IMG/VR virus record: IMGVR_UViG_3300034682_000051
Coordinates: 1-23,673 of that record
Direction: 5' to 3' (one strand)
DNA length: 23,673 nucleotides
Origin: a virus
Positions 15,536-23,018 of the stretch are shown piece by piece; the stretch's first letter is position 1; each line of letters opens with the position of its first letter. The position numbers and the translations under genes were made by a program. The notes under the pieces are model-generated. The model did no database searches, had not been told where the DNA came from, and saw nothing but the letters and a program-made list of their open reading frames with translations.

Positions 15536-17575
15536 TCAGGCGCCAGCGTTGGTGACTGCGCCGCGATAGTCCACAGCGGCCACGCCGTAGTCCAGGCGCA
15601 CCTTGTAGCGAGCGCCGTCCACATCGAAGCCGTTTTGCAGTTCGATGTAGGGCTCTTGCACGCCATCGAGGAAGGCGACTTCCAGCACGGGCGCTTCGGT
15701 AGCGTCGGCAAACAGGTAGCGGCGGGTGCCGCCCAGGCGGGGGGTGTCCACGATGTCGCGGAACAGGCCGTTGACCACGTTGGGCTTTTGCAGCTTGTTG
15801 GCGGTGTCGGGGTCGTACAGCGCTTCGTTGATGCTGCGGGCAGTGCCGCCCAGGCCGATAGGCACCAGCAGTACGGATGGGCGCAGATCCAGATAGTCGT
15901 TGCCCGACACGTCCTTTTGCGAGGCCATGGCCACACGGTCTGCATCCAGCGCAGCCATGGAGATGGCAGCGGCAGTGCTGATGTTGCCGTGGTCAGCATG
16001 GAACAGCGTCTTGCCGTCGCCCATGGCTGGGCCCAGGCCGCCGTTCAAAGCCAGCAGCGCGTACACATCCACCTCGACCGTGCGGGCAGCTGCGCGGCCC
16101 AGCATGCCAGCCAGGCCCACAAAGGCGCCCAGGTCATCGTTGATGATGGCCGTGCGGCTGAGGTTGATGATGTTGCCCTTGGTGCCTGCGGTGATGCTGC
16201 CCTTTTCGCCATCGGGGATGGATTTGTTGACATACTCGCCCAGCTCGTTGACGGCATCCAGGCTGCCGAAGGAGCCGACGCGGTAGCGGTTGTGCGCGCG
16301 GAAGTCGCTCACGCTGCCGGTGGCGCAGAAGCGATTCCAAGTGAGCGCCTGGGTGGCGTAGGCAGCCTGCAGCGCCTTGTGCATGGTGTTTTCCAGCAGC
16401 ACGGGAAAGTCGCTGGTGCCTTGGGTGAAGGCGGCTGCCACCACGTCCAACTGACCCATGCCTTCCACCTTTTTGCCTGCGCGCTCAGCGGACGCGCGGG
16501 CCAGATCCAGCAGCTTGGCGCCACGGAATGGGTTGGAGGCCATGGAGGCGCGCACCTTGTCGCTCACCTTCACGCCGGCACGCACCAGAAGCGCGTCAGA
16601 CGCGGCGGCGATGCGCTTGTCGGCTTCGTCTTCGGAGGTTTCCACCTTGGGGAACGAACCGGCGGGGTTGGCTGGCTCGGTGCCCTTACCCATTTCAGCC
16701 AGCAAGCGAGCCTGGATGGTTTCGATGGTCAGGGCTGGGTCTGCCAGCACCTCGGTCTGAAGCGCGGCAATTTCAGGGCACGAGGCAAAGGGCTTAAACA
16801 GGGCCAGCACCTTGGCGTTGTCGTCTTTGGTGCGAGCGAAAGCGGCAGGTTGAGCCGCCGGCGTGTTTTCTGCGGGCATGGAATGCTCCTGTGGTTTGGC
16901 GGCGGCTGCCGCAGGTTGAGAAAGTGGTTTGTGTGCGGCAGCGGCAGGCGCGGCTGCAGGCTTGAAGCGGGAAAGGTCAAAGCTGCTGGCCAGCGATGCA
17001 GCCACAGCAGCTTCAGCGCCAACGGTGTCGGCAAAGCCCTCTTCCACGGCTTCGCTAGCCAGGAACCAGTGGTCTTTGCCATCGGTGAGCATGGCCAGGG
17101 CTTCGTCGTATGTCTTGCCGCTCTTGTCGGCGTAGGCGCTGGCCATGGCCTTGGCGTAGCGATCCAGAATGTCGGCCTGCTCGCGCAGCTCCACGGCGTT
17201 GCCGCCTGCGTAAGACCAAGGGGCGTGAATCATCATTTGGCTGTTTTCAGCCATGGTGATGGTGTCGCCCGCCATGGCGATGTAGCTGGCGCAGCTGATG
17301 GCCACGCCATCGATGTGCACGGCCACAGTGGCACGGTGGCGCTTGAGAGCGTTGTAGATGGCCAGGCCATCAGGCACGCTGCCGCCGTAGCTGTTGATGC
17401 GCAGGTTGATGGCGTCCACATCCAGCGCAGCCAGATCACGCACCATGTTGGCAGCGATCACGCCGTCTTCATTCCAGCGGTCGCCAATGTTTCCGTAGAT
17501 GAACACATCAGCAGCCACCGGCTTTTCACCAGCGGCCTGCGGTGCCTGGGCTTTGATTTCATACCATTTCGCCAT
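15536..17575 (-). CDS. ClpP-like prohead protease fused to major capsid protein
   Basis: This 679-residue protein joins two roles. Residues about 20-195 are a ClpP/S49-type protease: INSYGGSV (60-67), GVAISCAS with the likely catalytic Ser94, IAMAGD (99-104), and MMIHAPW with the catalytic His117. It would cleave head proteins during prohead maturation. Residues about 205-232 are an Ala/Pro-rich linker. Residues about 233-330 are helical and charged, as in scaffold or delta domains. The rest is a HK97-fold capsid region resembling Mu gpT-type proteins (AARTVEVDVYALLALNGG, GKTLFHADHGN). The ATG at 17575 follows GAAGG. Such protease-capsid fusions are known in some phages. A strong internal start at 16879 suggests that capsid protein is also made alone. 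Self-cleavage near the linker is likely. Confidence 0.9.
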   Translation of the reverse strand: MAKWYEIKAQAPQAAGEKPVAADVFIYGNIGDRWNEDGVIAANMVRDLAALDVDAINLRINSYGGSVPDGLAIYNALKRHRATVAVHIDGVAISCASYIAMAGDTITMAENSQMMIHAPWSYAGGNAVELREQADILDRYAKAMASAYADKSGKTYDEALAMLTDGKDHWFLASEAVEEGFADTVGAEAAVAASLASSFDLSRFKPAAAPAAAAHKPLSQPAAAAAKPQEHSMPAENTPAAQPAAFARTKDDNAKVLALFKPFASCPEIAALQTEVLADPALTIETIQARLLAEMGKGTEPANPAGSFPKVETSEDEADKRIAAASDALLVRAGVKVSDKVRASMASNPFRGAKLLDLARASAERAGKKVEGMGQLDVVAAAFTQGTSDFPVLLENTMHKALQAAYATQALTWNRFCATGSVSDFRAHNRYRVGSFGSLDAVNELGEYVNKSIPDGEKGSITAGTKGNIINLSRTAIINDDLGAFVGLAGMLGRAAARTVEVDVYALLALNGGLGPAMGDGKTLFHADHGNISTAAAISMAALDADRVAMASQKDVSGNDYLDLRPSVLLVPIGLGGTARSINEALYDPDTANKLQKPNVVNGLFRDIVDTPRLGGTRRYLFADATEAPVLEVAFLDGVQEPYIELQNGFDVDGARYKVRLDYGVAAVDYRGAVTNAGA
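16877..16890 (-). promoter_or_regulatory. Internal ribosome binding site and ATG for capsid-only product
   Basis: Inside the fused gene, AGGAG (16890-16886) stands 6 bases before an in-frame ATG (16879-16877), which is codon 233 (MPAENTPAAQPAAF). This site is better than the one at the gene's own start. Initiation here would give a 447-residue scaffold-plus-capsid protein without protease, in excess over the fusion. The position just after the Ala/Pro linker, at the domain boundary, argues for function. It resembles the nested C/Nu3 arrangement of lambda in logic. Confidence 0.7.
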
Positions 17576-17583
17576 GGGTTGCC

Positions 17584-17606
17584 TTCACATATCGGTTGCA
17601 TGTGAA
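17584..17606 (-). promoter_or_regulatory. Hairpin overlapping the ribosome site of the protease-capsid gene
   Basis: TTCACAT and ATGTGAA form a perfect 7-bp inverted repeat around a 9-nt spacer. On the minus-strand mRNA, the 3' arm ends in AUGUGAA, whose GAA is part of the GAAGG Shine-Dalgarno sequence before the ATG at 17575. Folding would mask part of the ribosome site, so it could tune translation. It could also be a protein-binding dyad in the DNA. It directly follows repeat element A. Confidence 0.5.
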
Positions 17607-17607
17607 T

Positions 17608-17647
17608 GTGCCCAGTTGGCTGTCCAAAATCTCAAAAATACTGGACT
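17608..17647 (-). promoter_or_regulatory. Repeat element A: dyad upstream of protease-capsid gene
   Basis: This 40-bp segment matches 22556-22595 at 35 of 40 positions with no gaps. It contains the dyad GTCCA-N15-TGGAC (17622-17626 and 17642-17646), with centres about two helical turns apart, plus a shorter dyad CCA-GT-TGG next to it. Element A lies between the terminator at 17666-17692 and the protease-capsid start, where a new promoter is needed. TGGACA on the minus strand resembles a -35 box, but no good -10 follows, as expected for activator-dependent promoters. The Mor-like protein encoded near the other copy is a candidate binder (inference). Confidence 0.6.
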
Positions 17648-17665
17648 ACTTTCATGCCACCCCAG

Positions 17666-17692
17666 CAAAAGAAAAGCCGCCCGAAGGCGGCT
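17666..17692 (-). terminator. Rho-independent terminator after the fibre cassette
   Basis: On the minus strand, AGCCGCC-TTCG-GGCGGCT forms a 7-bp stem closed by a stable TTCG tetraloop, followed by TTTCTTTT. It begins 20 bp after the stop of the 96-residue gene and precedes repeat element A. It should end or reduce transcription coming from the portal and fibre genes before the protease-capsid unit. Confidence 0.85.
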
Positions 17693-17712
17693 AGGCCAGA
17701 GCAGCACACGCA

Positions 17713-18003
17713 TCAATTCGGCTGCTGGTATTCGGCAGGCAAGTTCTTTCGTGCCCGCTCCTTCAAATAGGCCTTGTAGCAATGATCCGGCCCCTGCCAG
17801 AAGAACAGCAGGTTGATGGGCTTCATGGTGAGCTTGCCGAAAATCTTGCCGTCCCGGTATGCGCGGTAGCTGCGCGCAGAGAGCGTTTCGTCGGCGTAGC
17901 TGATCGTGCCGTCCAGTGGCGGAATCAGAGCGTTCACCAGCTGGTCAGCCGCGATGAACACCTGCTCACAGTAGGCTTTTATCAAACGTAATGCCTGCAG
18001 CAT
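17713..18003 (-). CDS. Conserved phage protein of unknown function at end of fibre cassette
   Basis: This 96-residue protein begins at the ATG at 18003, which follows GAGGAGGAAGCAA, one of the strongest ribosome sites in the window. This start overlaps the end of the DUF4376 gene by 38 bp. The sequence has an N-terminal helix (MLQALRLIKAYCEQVFIAAD), then LIPPLDGTISYADETLSARS, and PINLLFFWQGPDHCYKAYLK with a basic end. I recall the motif YADETLSAR...LLFFWQ..HC..AY from small proteins in other prophages but know no function. There is no signal peptide. The exposed hydrophobic LLFFW and the nearby Cys-His are worth noting. High expected translation compared with its neighbours suggests a specific role. 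Confidence 0.7.
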   Translation of the reverse strand: MLQALRLIKAYCEQVFIAADQLVNALIPPLDGTISYADETLSARSYRAYRDGKIFGKLTMKPINLLFFWQGPDHCYKAYLKERARKNLPAEYQQPN

Positions 18004-18541
18004 TTGCTTCCTCCTCGATGGATGTGGGCCAGCCCGTTGAAAAGTCGTAGTCCTGCGGCGCCTCGCTGGCTTCCATGGCAAGGCGGTGCGCTTCGGCGGC
18101 AGTGAAGATGGCGGTATCGCTGGCGGCTGTGGCGGCGACGATGGCCTGAGCCAATGTGGGCGTCATGGCCACAAATACAGGCGGCGGGGTGAGCGTGAGC
18201 GTTTTCCACTGCAGCCCTGCGGGGATGTTGGAGCCGAGCAGCACCAGGCCGAGCTGCTGGGTGCGGCTTTTCTGGTCGCTGTGGAACCAGTGCTGGCCGA
18301 CCTTCACGCCGAGGGATGCACGGCGGTCGCGCTCTGCCTTGATGGATTCCCAGGCGGCGGCGCGGCGCTGCTCGATTGGAGTCAGCTCTGCGGGCTCCGG
18401 CACTCCGCCAGAAATGAGCCACTGCTTGTATTCCAGATAATCGGGATTTGTGTTTGGCGACTCAGGCGTGTCAACCGTCGGAATCGTGATGTTTCCGTTT
18501 TTAATGACATGCCCCTGCCCTGTCAGCTTATAGGCTGTCAT
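17966..18541 (-). CDS. DUF4376-containing fibre-associated protein
   Basis: This 191-residue protein starts at the ATG at 18541, overlapping the fibre gene stop by 4 bp. The N-terminal ~60 residues resemble the short region common in fibre assembly proteins (YKLTGQGHVIKNGNITIPT ... NPDYLEYKQWLISGGVPEP). The remainder fits DUF4376: WESIKAERDRRASLGVKV, HWFHSDQKSRTQQLGLVL, LQWKTLTLTPPPVFVAMTPT and IFTAAEAHRLAM. DUF4376 proteins usually follow phage fibre genes and act as fibre chaperones or as small C-terminal fibre parts. That is the likely role here. Because the cassette lies in the head genes, the target fibre might be on the head and not the tail. Confidence 0.78.
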   Translation of the reverse strand: MTAYKLTGQGHVIKNGNITIPTVDTPESPNTNPDYLEYKQWLISGGVPEPAELTPIEQRRAAAWESIKAERDRRASLGVKVGQHWFHSDQKSRTQQLGLVLLGSNIPAGLQWKTLTLTPPPVFVAMTPTLAQAIVAATAASDTAIFTAAEAHRLAMEASEAPQDYDFSTGWPTSIEEEANAAGITFDKSLL

Positions 18542-19863
18542 AGGTATTGACCCCCTGCGCTCACAGTACCAGCCACGTTTCCAGGGTAGTAGGTCGCCCC
18601 CGCGCTGTTGCTAAGAATGACGCCGTTCGCGGTGACGTCGTATCGTTTCCCAGTGGCCGCACCCGAGAACGTTGCCGCGTAATAGACGCACTGCCCACAG
18701 AACAGGGCTTGAACAAAAGCCCCACTGAAAGCTGGAGTGCCGACAAGTGTTGTTGTGATGGCCTGCTCCGAACGAAAAGCACCACCTGCAGTGGCCCGCG
18801 CGTGATACCACGCACCGGCTGAAATTTCGTAACTACCGACCACGCGCAACAAGCCACCATTTGCGTACAGATGAACGCCGAACGCGCCCACAGCTCCGCA
18901 TACGATATTGCTCACCTCGACGTTGCTGTAATCTCTGGAGGTGATTGCACTAGCGCTTGTGGACTCGACCTTGACGCCTTGAACGCGATACAAGCCAACT
19001 CCAGCAAAGAGCAACGTATTAGTTGATGACGTTAGAACCACAGACGATGGGCTTGCGGCATTGCCCAGCAGGATGACCCGGCCAGAACCAATCGTCGCAC
19101 CGCCTGTGGACGCCCCCGTGTAGGTGCCGTCGGCTATCTGAATTGTCAAGTCGTAGGTGCCAAGATCCAGGTTACCAGCCACAGTGAGGGCTTTCTGGAT
19201 TGTCAGAAACGCACCGCCTGCCGTGTTGGTCAGGCCGTCGTTGCTGTCGCTGCCATCCGTGCGAACGTAATACGTCCGAGGTGCAGACAGTTTTTCGCGC
19301 ACGGCGGCTTCGTCTGCCTTGGCACCGATCTGTGCCTGCAATTTGCCGATGGCTGCGAGCACTGTGTCAGTTGCAACAACCGCAGCGCTCGTCGCAGTGG
19401 ACAGTCCTGTGAGCACCGCCGCGCGCACATCAGTTGCGAAGTCGCGCCAGGACTTGTCCCCACGCCAGTATTTCGCAGCGGTATCGGCTGTGATCTCTGG
19501 CTCTGCACCGATGGCAGCACGCGCAGCGGCCTCGTCGGCGCCGGCAGCGATGACGGCAGGCTTGTCGGCAATGCCAGCCCACGAAGTGGTGCCAGCAGGC
19601 CCAGGGTCTCCAGTTTCACCCTTTGGCCCCTGAATGCCCGGCAGGCCTTGCTCGCCCTGCGGGCCCTGGGCGCCCCGCTGGATCCACGCCACTGGCTCGG
19701 CAGCCGCAAGCATCCACTCGGTTTGGTCAGATAGCTGCAGGCAATACTTGCCCAGATCGGCAGGCAGGGGCACCAAAGCCAGCCGCGCGGCCTCATCGAC
19801 TACGCGCCAGTTGTGCGGTGCGTGCACTTCGCCTGGCTCAATTTCTGAGTGTTCGATGGTCAT
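18538..19863 (-). CDS. Phage fibre with collagen-like stem and beta-helix domain
   Basis: This 441-residue protein starts at the ATG at 19863, overlapping the previous stop as ATGA. Residues 1-63 form a virion-anchor type domain (GEVHAPHNWRVVDEAARLAL ... TEWMLAAAEPVAWIQ). Residues 64-91 are nine Gly-X-Y triplets (GAQGPQGEQGLPGIQGPKG onward), predicting a collagen-like triple helix and so a trimer. Residues about 92-195 are helical and Ala-rich. From about 196, TYYVRTDGSDSNDGLTNTAG and FLTIQKAL begin a right-handed beta-helix domain typical of phage fibres and tailspikes, ending in YYPGNVAGTVSAGG. I see no obvious catalytic motif. The role is probably adhesion to a surface glycan or protein. 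The location between portal and protease genes is unusual. Confidence 0.82.
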   Translation of the reverse strand: MTIEHSEIEPGEVHAPHNWRVVDEAARLALVPLPADLGKYCLQLSDQTEWMLAAAEPVAWIQRGAQGPQGEQGLPGIQGPKGETGDPGPAGTTSWAGIADKPAVIAAGADEAAARAAIGAEPEITADTAAKYWRGDKSWRDFATDVRAAVLTGLSTATSAAVVATDTVLAAIGKLQAQIGAKADEAAVREKLSAPRTYYVRTDGSDSNDGLTNTAGGAFLTIQKALTVAGNLDLGTYDLTIQIADGTYTGASTGGATIGSGRVILLGNAASPSSVVLTSSTNTLLFAGVGLYRVQGVKVESTSASAITSRDYSNVEVSNIVCGAVGAFGVHLYANGGLLRVVGSYEISAGAWYHARATAGGAFRSEQAITTTLVGTPAFSGAFVQALFCGQCVYYAATFSGAATGKRYDVTANGVILSNSAGATYYPGNVAGTVSAGGQYL

Positions 19864-20330
19864 GTTTTCACTACGTATTGGCCGTTAACCACCACGGCCT
19901 GGCCGTTCACGGTCACGGCGTTTGCAGGCACACCGCTGCCAGCGGATAGCTGGATGCCGATGCGGTAAACGCTGGTACCGCGGCGAATGAACATTTCGTC
20001 GCCCGCCTCGACGGTGGTGGTGGGCTGCACGGCGTTGGGGTCAAAGCCCTTGACGATGGTGGCCGAGCCACTGCTACCACCACGTGCGCCAGCAGGCCCG
20101 CGCAAATCAACCCACTTACCCCAAGCGCCGGTGGGCAGCTCAAAGCGCAGCTTAGTGCCCTGCCACTGGTGGCTGGGCATGGGGCCGGTGTCGCCCTTGT
20201 CTCCTTTGGCGCCCTTCTCGCCACGCTCGCCCTGCGCCTGGGCAATGGCGGCGGCTACCAGGCGCGCATCGGCTGCGGCGCGCGCCTGGCGCAGCCGCTT
20301 TTGCTGCAGGAGCATGACGGCAGTGGTCAC
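19860..20330 (-). CDS. Small collagen-like virion protein
   Basis: This is a 156-residue protein. The start is GTG at 20330, overlapping the portal TGA (GTGA), and the stop overlaps the next ATG, so it is coupled on both sides. Residues about 8-32 are a helical Ala/Arg-rich region (LLQQKRLRQARAAADARLVA). Residues about 34-50 are Gly-X-Y triplets rich in Lys/Glu/Asp (GERGEKGAKGDKGDTGP), favourable for a triple helix. Next comes HQWQGTKLRFELPTGAWGKW, a motif seen in phage collagen-like proteins, with a second short Gly-rich part (GPAGARGGSSGSA). The C-terminal ~60 residues are beta (AGDEMFIRRGTSVYRIGIQL). It could be a fibre base, adaptor or head decoration. The precise function is unknown. Confidence 0.72.
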   Translation of the reverse strand: MTTAVMLLQQKRLRQARAAADARLVAAAIAQAQGERGEKGAKGDKGDTGPMPSHQWQGTKLRFELPTGAWGKWVDLRGPAGARGGSSGSATIVKGFDPNAVQPTTTVEAGDEMFIRRGTSVYRIGIQLSAGSGVPANAVTVNGQAVVVNGQYVVKT

Positions 20331-22330
20331 GCTGGCCCCTGCAGTTCTGCCAGCGCGGCCTCGGCAGCTTGCAGGTCGATTGCTGCAATGCTGGCGCGGT
20401 GGCGCGCTTCTACTTCGGCAATGGCGTACAGCGCCTGGGCGCGTTGCTCTGCGGCCTGCAGGGCTGCGGCACGGGCGTCAGCATCGGCCCAGGCCTGGGC
20501 GGCCTGCTCTTGCAGCACCGCGAGTCGTTGCTGCAGCTCAGCATCGCTGGCCTTTGCCTGGGCTTCTGCTTTGGCTTGATCCAGCGTGGCGCGAGATTTT
20601 TCCGCATCGGCCTGAGCCAGCAGCAAGGCAGCGCGGGCGTCTTCGGCCTGGGCTGTGGCATCGGCAGAGTTGGCATTGGCAATACGCTCTCTTGTCTCGG
20701 CTTCGATCAACTTTACGCGGCAGCGCTCAAGCTCTGCACGCGCATCGGCCAGGGCTTTGGCGTGGCCGTCGCCCGCCTGCTGGCTGTGCAGCTGAGCCTT
20801 CACCAAGCGAGCCTGGGCCTCAGCCAGCTTGGCTCGGGCCTGCACATCTGGCGCATCGTTGGCGGCTTGCAGCGCTGCGTTGTGGGGGATGCCTTGCTTT
20901 TCCTTTTCGCGGCGCCAGCGGGCTTCCTGCTCCAGCGTGTCGATGGGGTTGCCGCCGCGCTTGCGCACGATTTCTGGGCCGCTGGCGTAGGCGCGGTCTT
21001 CCAGCAGGGCCCAGGCTTCGGCCTCTTTGCGTGGGTCGATCCACGGCATGGCGGGGGGCATGTAGGTGGCGTCGTCCACCGTTTCAGGCTTGACGCCACG
21101 CGGCACTACCAGCGTGCCGCTGACCACGGCGGTGGCGATGAAGCGCTCGTACACGGGGCGCACGATGCGGCTGATGAATTCTTCAGACAACGTGGCGTAG
21201 GCGGCGTACCCTTCCACCAGCTCTTGCCGCTGGGCGCTATAGGTACCGTTGTAGGTGCGGGCAATGCTGCTGAAGGTGGGGCCCGTACCAGCTGCGATGG
21301 CCTTCATTTGGCCGCTGCGGTATGTCTCCAGATTGGGGTTGGGCCGGTTGGTGTCGATCATGCCAATGTCTTCACCGGGGCGAAGGTCATCGAACACCAT
21401 GCCGGGCCGGAACTTCATTTGCCGGGGGGCGTCGTCATCCACTGAATCAGGGTTGTAAGTGTCTGGCGCGCCTTTCTTGATGTAGGCGGCCATGCTGGCG
21501 GCGATCTTGGCGGCGATACGCTCGCTCTCTTCGTAGTCCTTCAGGTCGTCAAACCGGTTGAGCACGCTGGCAAAGATGCTGACGCCACGCAGCTGGCGAA
21601 TGCGCGTGACGTTTTTGAGGTGCAGCATGCGGTCTGCCGTGATGCGCTTGGTACGCCCGCCCAAGCTGGCCGAGGACGCAGGCTCATCGCGCAGGACGTG
21701 GTACGCCACTGGGGCGCCCCAAGCGTTGGTTTCAATACCCTGGCTGATGTTGGCCGGGGTGGTGGACTGCAGGCCCATGGGCACATAGTCGGCCTCAAGC
21801 AACTCAAGACTGAAGGGCACGCGGCTGCCGTGGTTGAGGCTGGCCATGACGCCCGCCACCAGTTGCGCGAACACCTCGCCATCACGCAGCCAACTGCGGC
21901 ACAGCAGGCGCTGGGCGCTGGGCCAGTCGTGCTGGCGGGTGACTTCGGGGTTGGCCTGCCAGTCGCGCCAGAGCTCAAGAATCTGCCGGGCCAGTTCATC
22001 ATTGATGCTGCCGTCAGCGTTGCGCGGCTGGGGTTCAATGCCGATGCCTTTGGCTCCCACCACGTTGACCACCAGGGTGTTGAGCACGCCCAGGGCAAGA
22101 TCGTAGTTTTGCTCCAGGTGGCGGGCGATTTCACGCAGGGTGCTTCCAGCGCGTTGCACTTCGTCATTGGCACTGCCCGTGGCGCGACGGCCCTTGCGCA
22201 GGCGGTCTGGCCGGGCGGCTTCGTAGTAGTTGAGCACTGAGCGTGCCTGGGCACGGCGCACTGCGGCGCCAGGCGCGAACCAAGCCACCACGCGGTCGGC
22301 CAGGTTGAATTGCGGGTGTTTTGCAGCCAT
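20327..22330 (-). CDS. Portal protein, lambda gpB type, with coiled-coil extension
   Basis: This 667-residue protein forms the ring through which DNA enters the head. AAGGGG lies 5 bases before the ATG at 22330. Core features of lambda-type portals (about residues 1-490) are LNYYEAARPDRLRKGRRATG, a helix REIARHLEQNYDLALGVLNT, NVVGAKGIGIEPQP, RLLCRSWLRDGEVFAQLVAG, GIETNAWGAPVAYHVLRD, YKS-like parts, and FSSIARTYNGTYSAQRQELV near residue 350. Residues about 490-667 are an extra Ala/Glu/Gln-rich helical extension (AKLAEAQARLVKAQLHSQQA, AEAQAKASDAELQQRLAVLQ), a long coiled coil absent in lambda gpB (533 aa). It may reach into the head as a barrel or scaffold contact. The last codons overlap the collagen-like gene. 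Confidence 0.93.
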   Translation of the reverse strand: MAAKHPQFNLADRVVAWFAPGAAVRRAQARSVLNYYEAARPDRLRKGRRATGSANDEVQRAGSTLREIARHLEQNYDLALGVLNTLVVNVVGAKGIGIEPQPRNADGSINDELARQILELWRDWQANPEVTRQHDWPSAQRLLCRSWLRDGEVFAQLVAGVMASLNHGSRVPFSLELLEADYVPMGLQSTTPANISQGIETNAWGAPVAYHVLRDEPASSASLGGRTKRITADRMLHLKNVTRIRQLRGVSIFASVLNRFDDLKDYEESERIAAKIAASMAAYIKKGAPDTYNPDSVDDDAPRQMKFRPGMVFDDLRPGEDIGMIDTNRPNPNLETYRSGQMKAIAAGTGPTFSSIARTYNGTYSAQRQELVEGYAAYATLSEEFISRIVRPVYERFIATAVVSGTLVVPRGVKPETVDDATYMPPAMPWIDPRKEAEAWALLEDRAYASGPEIVRKRGGNPIDTLEQEARWRREKEKQGIPHNAALQAANDAPDVQARAKLAEAQARLVKAQLHSQQAGDGHAKALADARAELERCRVKLIEAETRERIANANSADATAQAEDARAALLLAQADAEKSRATLDQAKAEAQAKASDAELQQRLAVLQEQAAQAWADADARAAALQAAEQRAQALYAIAEVEARHRASIAAIDLQAAEAALAELQGPA

Positions 22331-22339
22331 GCGCGCCCC

Positions 22340-22546
22340 TTAGTCGGAAAAGTCGGCCAGCTGGTGGCGTGGGTAGGGGCGCGGCTTTGCAGCGGCTGCC
22401 ATGTCGGCCAGGATGACCGCGCGGGCTTTGAGCAGGTCATCGGTATCACGGTAGGTGACGGTTTTGCCGTCTGCGCCGCGAATGCTCAGCTCGCCGCTGG
22501 CAATGGCCGCATCAATAGCGGCAAGGTCTGAGGTGGTGAAGGCCAT
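22340..22546 (-). CDS. gpW-like head-tail connector protein
   Basis: This 68-residue protein is the same length as lambda gpW. It has the family layout: an N-terminal helix (FTTSDLAAIDAAIASGELSI), a beta hairpin with DGKTVTYRDTDDLLKARAVI, a second helix and a basic C-terminus. gpW proteins bind below the portal to close the filled head and allow tail joining. Position between terminase and portal agrees with lambda. The ATG at 22546 has no Shine-Dalgarno sequence. Instead a 6-bp hairpin (TTGGGC/GCCCAA) reaches the A of the start codon, and repeat element B lies directly upstream. Confidence 0.85.
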   Translation of the reverse strand: MAFTTSDLAAIDAAIASGELSIRGADGKTVTYRDTDDLLKARAVILADMAAAAKPRPYPRHQLADFSD

Positions 22547-22563
22547 TGGGCTAGGGTGCCCAA
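22546..22563 (-). promoter_or_regulatory. Hairpin abutting the gpW start codon
   Basis: TTGGGC and GCCCAA pair perfectly over a 6-nt loop. On the mRNA, the 3' arm includes the A of the gpW AUG. With no Shine-Dalgarno sequence upstream, this structure could hold down gpW translation until ribosomes or a factor open it. It overlaps the left end of element B, so a DNA-binding function is also possible. Confidence 0.5.
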
Positions 22564-22595
22564 CTGGCTGTCCAAAATCTCAAATTTTCTGGACT
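22556..22595 (-). promoter_or_regulatory. Repeat element B: dyad upstream of gpW
   Basis: This is the second copy of the 40-bp element (35/40 identical to 17608-17647). It has the same dyad GTCCA-N15-TGGAC (22570-22574, 22590-22594), and the neighbouring small dyad is CCA-AC-TGG in place of CCA-GT-TGG. The central bases differ between copies (TTTT against AATA), while the outer arms are unchanged, as expected for a dimeric protein site. It fills nearly the whole 49-bp gap between the stop of the Mor-like gene and the gpW start. A role as activator or operator site for the head gene unit is inferred. Confidence 0.6.
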
Positions 22596-23018
22596 TTATG
22601 AATTGCCGCGCGGCTTCCTTGAAAGGATGTTGTAGAACAACGCCTTGGAGATACCGAACTGGCGCATCACTTCCAGACGATTGCGCCCGTTGAAAGCCAG
22701 CCAAACTTCACGGTCACGCAGCGCCCTGGCGTCGCGCTTGGTGACATAGCGGCCCCCGATGCGTGGAGCCAGGCGGCGGGCAACCTCTGCAGCCAGGGCA
22801 TCCAGCTCGGCACCCCTCACGCCATCACGGAAGGCGGCCAGCCCACGGTCGCGGCTGCACTCTGCCAGGATGCAGCGCACGTCTTCACGCAGAGTAGCGC
22901 CGTCGCCATCGCCAGCCTCTTCGCCAAAGAGTGAGGGCGTGTCAGTCACGGCGATCAAATCCCCATCCGTCATCTGCATGGCTTGCGGCTCTTGGTTTGT
23001 GTGTGGTTCGTTGTGCAT
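22596..23018 (-). CDS. Mor/C-family-like transcription activator
   Basis: This is a protein of 140 residues, or 127 if it starts at the in-frame ATG at 22979 (a weak AAGAG lies upstream of that one). The C-terminal third reads IGGRYVTKRDARALRDREVW, LAFNGRNRLEVMRQFGISKA and LFYNILSRK. This matches the Mor/C family of Mu: a short strand before a helix, then a helix-turn-helix with FGISKALFYNIL as recognition part. Mor and C activate middle and late promoters of Mu as dimers. The preceding ~85 residues (LREDVRCILAEC ... LAAEVARRLAPR) look helical and could dimerise. It overlaps the terminase end by 77 bp (38 bp with the later start). Lying at the head of the late genes with element B downstream, it may regulate late transcription. 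Family call good, target inferred. Confidence 0.75.
   Translation of the reverse strand: MHNEPHTNQEPQAMQMTDGDLIAVTDTPSLFGEEAGDGDGATLREDVRCILAECSRDRGLAAFRDGVRGAELDALAAEVARRLAPRIGGRYVTKRDARALRDREVWLAFNGRNRLEVMRQFGISKALFYNILSRKPRGNS

Follow-up and report, generated by a model that had tools for sequence, protein, structure and literature searches.

Introduction

Late gene control in lambda-like phages is usually seen as antitermination or as the work of a distant activator. At MerR-type promoters, the -35 and -10 elements are separated by a spacer of 19-20 bp, and an activator bound to a dyad between the two realigns them. The half-sites of lambda CII, which flank the -35, are direct repeats of TTGC spaced 6 bp apart. 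At Mu Pm, a Mor-family activator replaces the missing -35: Mor occupies a 16-bp site with a 6-bp G/C-rich spacer, centred at -43.5 (PMC4390567). At Mu Pmom, the promoter elements are out of phase and the C site overlaps the -35; unwinding of the DNA by C lets RNA polymerase in (PMC4461284). Both Mu proteins have been solved in RNA polymerase initiation complexes (9l0x and 9vw8 for C, 9l0y for Mor). The two C entries hold four C chains each, and the Mor sequence accounts for five chains over 9l0y and 1rr7. These chain counts hint that each promoter may be served by two dimers.

We analysed a viral DNA stretch of 23,673 nt (the window), in which a preliminary description had proposed that a twice-used 40-bp element marks activator-dependent late promoters read by an adjacent Mor-like protein. 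The locus shares with Mu Pm a Mor-family helix-turn-helix (HTH) protein, 5-bp inverted half-sites, a putative activator site at the -35 region and a -10-like motif. Unlike Pm, it has a site of 24-27 bp with a 14-17 bp spacer and an inferred centre near -36. Its half-sites lie two helical turns apart and straddle a -35-like TTGANA hexamer inside the site, and a start codon stands at the predicted +1. By sequence layout it is also like Pmom, whose activator C is the closest solved relative: arms sit astride a -35-like hexamer, and a weak -10 follows after a spacer of 19 bp. However, half-site spacing differs, and C serves four scattered late promoters, whereas here, in the records searched, two sites are the rule, at head genes beside the regulator. 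The long spacer recalls MerR-type promoters, but here the -35 is enclosed by the half-sites and the protein belongs to another family. CII half-sites flank the -35 as well, but they are direct repeats read by a sequence-unrelated protein. The papers that we searched do not describe such a promoter.

Two copies of one element in the head module

The head-module genes of the window are all read from the minus strand: terminase comes first, then the Mor-like regulator (22596-23018; Pfam Mor, PHROG 532), first element copy, gpW-like head-tail adaptor (22340-22546; PHROG 2545), portal protein (20327-22330; Phage_portal_2), tail-fibre-like and small genes (17713-20330), terminator, second copy, head maturation protease fused to the major capsid protein (15536-17575; CLP_protease and Phage_capsid_4, PHROG 133) and cement protein. 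The portal C-terminus (20327-20800) forms a long Ala/Gln/Glu-rich, coil-like extension ahead of the tail-fibre genes.

When recomputed, the repeat (family D12) gave the identity previously noted, 35/40 between 17608-17647 and 22556-22595, and both copies are intergenic. This is the top same-strand 40-mer match of the whole window; eight Markov-resampled windows reached maxima of 28-29/40. The window contains the dyad GTCCA-N15-TGGAC at two places and no more; shuffled sequences held 0.04 on average and never reached two. The gpW-copy dyad (22570-22594, minus strand), supported by the repeat, the shuffles and the relatives, is a putative binding site of the Mor-like protein; the dyad of the protease-capsid copy (17622-17646, minus strand) is supported by the repeat and the shuffles.

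On the minus strand, the gpW copy starts directly past the stop codon of the Mor-like gene and ends 9 bp short of the gpW ATG (22546). The protease copy lies behind an intrinsic-terminator-like hairpin (17692-17675, minus strand) that closes the upstream unit, and ahead of the protease-capsid fusion gene. Similar hairpins were seen by eye just upstream of the element in the relatives L026, L028 and L031. Both placements, after a terminator and before protease-capsid, and right after a Mor/C-type gene and before gpW, are thus as first described.

The adjacent gene encodes a Mor/C family protein

The Mor-like protein matched Pfam Mor with 30.4 bits (cut-off 24.9, E 4.3e-7) and PHROG 532, 'late transcriptional activator' (6e-8). 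Profile comparison matched it to Mu C (2.1e-10) and Mor (8.4e-5), and a Foldseek search with its structure model (pLDDT 70) returned Mu C and Mor as the top six hits, with E values of about 0.02-0.2. We therefore assign it to the Mor/C activator family, with a C-terminal HTH. In the model, Ala126 (codon 22641-22643) opens the second HTH helix, the recognition helix (125-133, in a block with pLDDT above 90). In the alignment, Mu C has Pro at this position and Mu Mor has Asn.

Element and regulator occur together in relatives

Relatives were gathered by scans with the Mor-like protein, its alignments, the element itself and the protease, which gave one Burkholderiales prophage besides phage contigs. 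At least 28 relatives of the Mor-like gene had an element of this layout before gpW, before protease-capsid or before both, and in core relatives it was always oriented with transcription. L006, the closest relative, carries the element at the same two places, together with a regulator about 76% identical; it has nothing where the window carries the tail-fibre-like and small genes 17713-20330. Both of its copies have GTGCA/TGCAC arms, versus GTCCA/TGGAC in the window.

Identical arms in both copies of one genome were found in the window, L006, L008, L009, L011, L013, L015, L031, L037, L038, L089, L091 and L094. Between phages the arms differ (GTCCA, GTGCA, TTGCC, GTCTC, GTCCG), and more distant protease relatives carry TTGCC (L089, L091, L096), GTGCC (L088), GTCTC (L090, L094) or TTCTC (L095). 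In L129, the L111 prophage, whose proteins are only about 45-50% identical to those of the window, the gpW and protease copies are one identical 27-bp palindrome with arms that differ again. The Mor-protease pair of L015 and L016 lies apart from the gpW-portal pair (about 13 kb off in L015), and each pair has an element, with matching right arms. In records searched whole, two sites per genome, both at head genes, are the rule. A protease copy was absent from L043 and was not found in L128, and no clear gpW copy was found in L095.

Head modules are split or rearranged in L007, L012, L015 and L016; there Mor adjoins or shortly precedes the protease and the terminase is distant, suggesting that Mor and protease-capsid travel together. 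Such shuffling of head modules, together with the position of the copies on either side of the gpW-portal-tail fibre block, would fit a non-regulatory repeat that arose by duplication or recombination or came with a small mobile element. We regard this origin as scarcely credible: the same two places and one orientation are kept at the protein identity seen in L129, spacing is invariant, the arms covary with Mor, and every gpW copy sets a -10-like motif 7-9 bases ahead of the gpW start.

The element was found in one of 399 Burkholderiales genomes, namely the one with a close Mor. Together with the 28 or more relatives, this bears out the co-occurrence of element and Mor-like gene for which the preliminary description had suggested a search. 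Most Burkholderiales Mor-family genes (L046-L074, L109-L124) fall into groups that are more distant and show no clear element, and only L050, L071, L111 and L118 yielded pairs. The element thus appears restricted to a subset of the Mor family. Among INPHARED phages there was no relative, by DNA or by Mor protein. Matches of 19-mer and 25-mer scans in the unrelated contigs L003-L005 were discarded as chance.

Copies in unrelated positions and without a regulator, which the preliminary description had named as counter-evidence, were met with in part in L075, a 17-kb partial record. L075 carries two copies 507 bp apart (804-836 and 1311-1343), before two paralogous small AlpA-like regulator genes that adjoin a tape measure gene (both named by inspection of sequence), and no Mor gene is in view in the record. 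These copies perhaps represent another late promoter, or part of a phage that answers a Mor encoded elsewhere.

One arm base covaries with one recognition-helix residue

Comparing the first 18 core Mor proteins, only one of 107 columns fully separated GTCCA phages (Ala) from GTGCA phages (Arg), and supported branches forced at least three switches. In the pooled table, arm base 3 and the residue at position 126 were concordant in 28/28 pairs (Arg with G in 19; Ala, Ser or Thr with C in nine), and the residue-126 column was the sole full separator of the two classes among 98 columns. The best tree of the 28 pairs has six switches, four if only supported branches are counted, all concordant; in the supported set a sign test remains above 0.05 because the independent switches (four to six) are too few.

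One pair was predicted beforehand. The arms of L095 (TTCTC) called for a non-Arg Mor, and the Mor later found elsewhere in its 45-kb record has Thr. Further pairs came from prophages of other genomes: L118 (Ala, GTCCA), L111 (Ser, GTCCG), L071 (Ala, GTCTC) and L050 (Ser, TTCCA). These four weigh less than the core, since they were picked out in part by eye and with a pattern search across many loci, which also yielded chance palindromes. The distant L098 group (TGTCA-N15-TGACA, Mor with Ser) was left out of the pair table, its arms not being placeable in register. Judged by sequence, this covariation across relatives indicates which Mor would read which element.

The element has a promoter-like anatomy

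Among the relatives, the left arm is separated by 14-17 bp from the inverted right arm, and a -10-like nnYANNNT follows 9 bp further on. The arms are two 5-bp inverted repeats, such as GTCCA/TGGAC, and nearly every copy is symmetric; variation in arm spacing (14-16 bp in core copies) is confined to the left side. The A and T of YANNNT (-11 and -7) are invariant in 26/26 distinct core copies, and Y is A in one copy. TTNANN occupies the -35-like place in 28/29 copies; as TTGAGA, TTAAGA, TTGATA or TTTAGA it stands a fixed 19 bp ahead of YANNNT in all but two core copies. The arms had been described as identical around a variable centre. The former holds, but the centre is not free: it contains this TTGANA-like hexamer, which is conserved and keeps a fixed distance to the -10-like motif; the latter lies partly beyond the 40 bp first delimited.

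Within the gpW copy of the window, the -35-like TTGAGA (22578-22583, minus strand) falls within the dyad and is separated by 19 bp from the -10-like CACCCT, which has GG ahead (GGCACCCT, 22553-22560, minus strand). The protease copy has TTGAGA at 17630-17635 and the -10-like CACATT (GGCACATT, 17605-17612), both on the minus strand. These -10 hexamers are poor, and a 19-bp spacer with a CANNNT -10 is found in nearly all copies. No promoter of ordinary spacing was found in the region. A sigma-54 promoter, considered from a GGCA motif, was rejected because the GC dinucleotide is missing at the required -24/-12 distance.

The weakness of this core promoter also bears on whether the Mor-like protein might repress. 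It would then bind both dyads, cover the -35 region and keep gpW and protease-capsid off until titrated or removed. The dyad does overlap the -35, where repressors commonly bind, and covariation as evidence for binding fits repression as well as activation. However, the best-matching solved relatives, Mu C and Mor, are activators, and a promoter with a 19-bp spacer and a CANNNT -10, in a region where one of ordinary spacing was not found, looks too weak to need a repressor. We consider repression improbable.

Start codons agree with the predicted transcription starts

In all 11 distinct core copies before gpW, the gpW ATG begins 7-9 bases past the T of YANNNT, and no Shine-Dalgarno sequence was seen ahead of it. 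From this spacing, the transcription start in the window is predicted at the A of the gpW ATG (22546, minus strand), which makes a leaderless gpW mRNA probable. Equally tight spacing is seen at the protease copies of L031, L037 and L044; at the others the leader is longer and in many cases contains AAGG or AAGGAG. In the window, transcription of protease-capsid is predicted to start near 17598, followed on the minus strand by a short leader with GAAGG (17582-17586) and the ATG at 17575. Start codons coincide exactly with the predicted start or follow well downstream of it, in the latter case usually with a ribosome site, from which we infer that the prediction is right.

These fixed distances also count against an element acting in RNA, where a hairpin in read-through transcripts would control processing or translation of gpW and protease. 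Pairs 1-5 of the dyad are almost always complementary and pairs 6-9 often (G-U at pair 6 in 19/26 copies), its orientation is always that of transcription, and the gpW start codon and some of the protease ribosome sites can be drawn within additional hairpins. However, a free stem has no reason to keep equal arms within a genome and different arms between genomes, nor should its third base track the recognition helix of an HTH protein. A -10-like motif with a pinned start codon lies at a fixed distance, and there is no Rfam match. An RNA element is therefore very unlikely in our judgement.

A proposed class of Mor-family late promoters

Co-occurrence of element and Mor, the 28/28 covariation and the spacing of -10 and start codon together support the late promoters of the preliminary description. 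On these sequence grounds, both copies are likely sigma-70-type promoters that depend on the Mor-like protein (22596-23018). Each recognition helix would read one 5-bp arm, so that a dimer or a pair of dimers would straddle the TTGANA -35-like element at about -37 to -32. The protein may thereby make usable a promoter with 19-bp spacing between -35 and -10 and a weak -10 (CANNNT). The gpW transcript would start at the ATG or a base or two ahead of it, and the protease transcript usually 15-45 nt upstream of its ATG, with a Shine-Dalgarno sequence. A terminase-Mor unit would be expressed first, and Mor would then turn on gpW-portal and protease-capsid as two units. Since two sites per genome are the rule, genes further downstream would be reached by read-through from both promoters.

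With somewhat less assurance, we favour the broader reading of a separate Mor-family late-promoter class in lambda-like phages, defined by a two-turn regulator span astride the -35, a 19-bp spacer, a leaderless head gene and specificity that rests largely on one recognition-helix residue (Arg with G; Ala, Ser or Thr with C). If one residue largely sets specificity, regulator and both operators would have switched together several times. A regulator inside the head module would then read two dedicated promoters beside itself. The natural matched regulator-operator pairs would supply the Mor/C family with a ready-made specificity code and with orthogonal activator-promoter pairs as tools, and the pinned start codons would allow transcription starts and leaderless mRNAs of head genes to be predicted for phages that are available from metagenomes only.

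Further inverted repeats lie close to the start codons. Palindromes resembling CCAT-N-GGGC-N6-GCCC-N-ATGG span the gpW start codon (22546-22563 in the window; also L006, L009, L011 and L013) and would be relevant only to read-through transcripts. Short inverted repeats also surround the protease Shine-Dalgarno sequence in the window (17575-17605), in L006 (12229-12258) and in L007, L012, L015 and L016, for example CCTTCAAA-GCGTTA-TTTGAAGG, GCAGGCTC-AAAG-GAGCTTGC and GCAGAC-..-GTCTGC. Their arms are altered between phages yet still pair, and it is possible that these repeats control translation of the protease-capsid gene.
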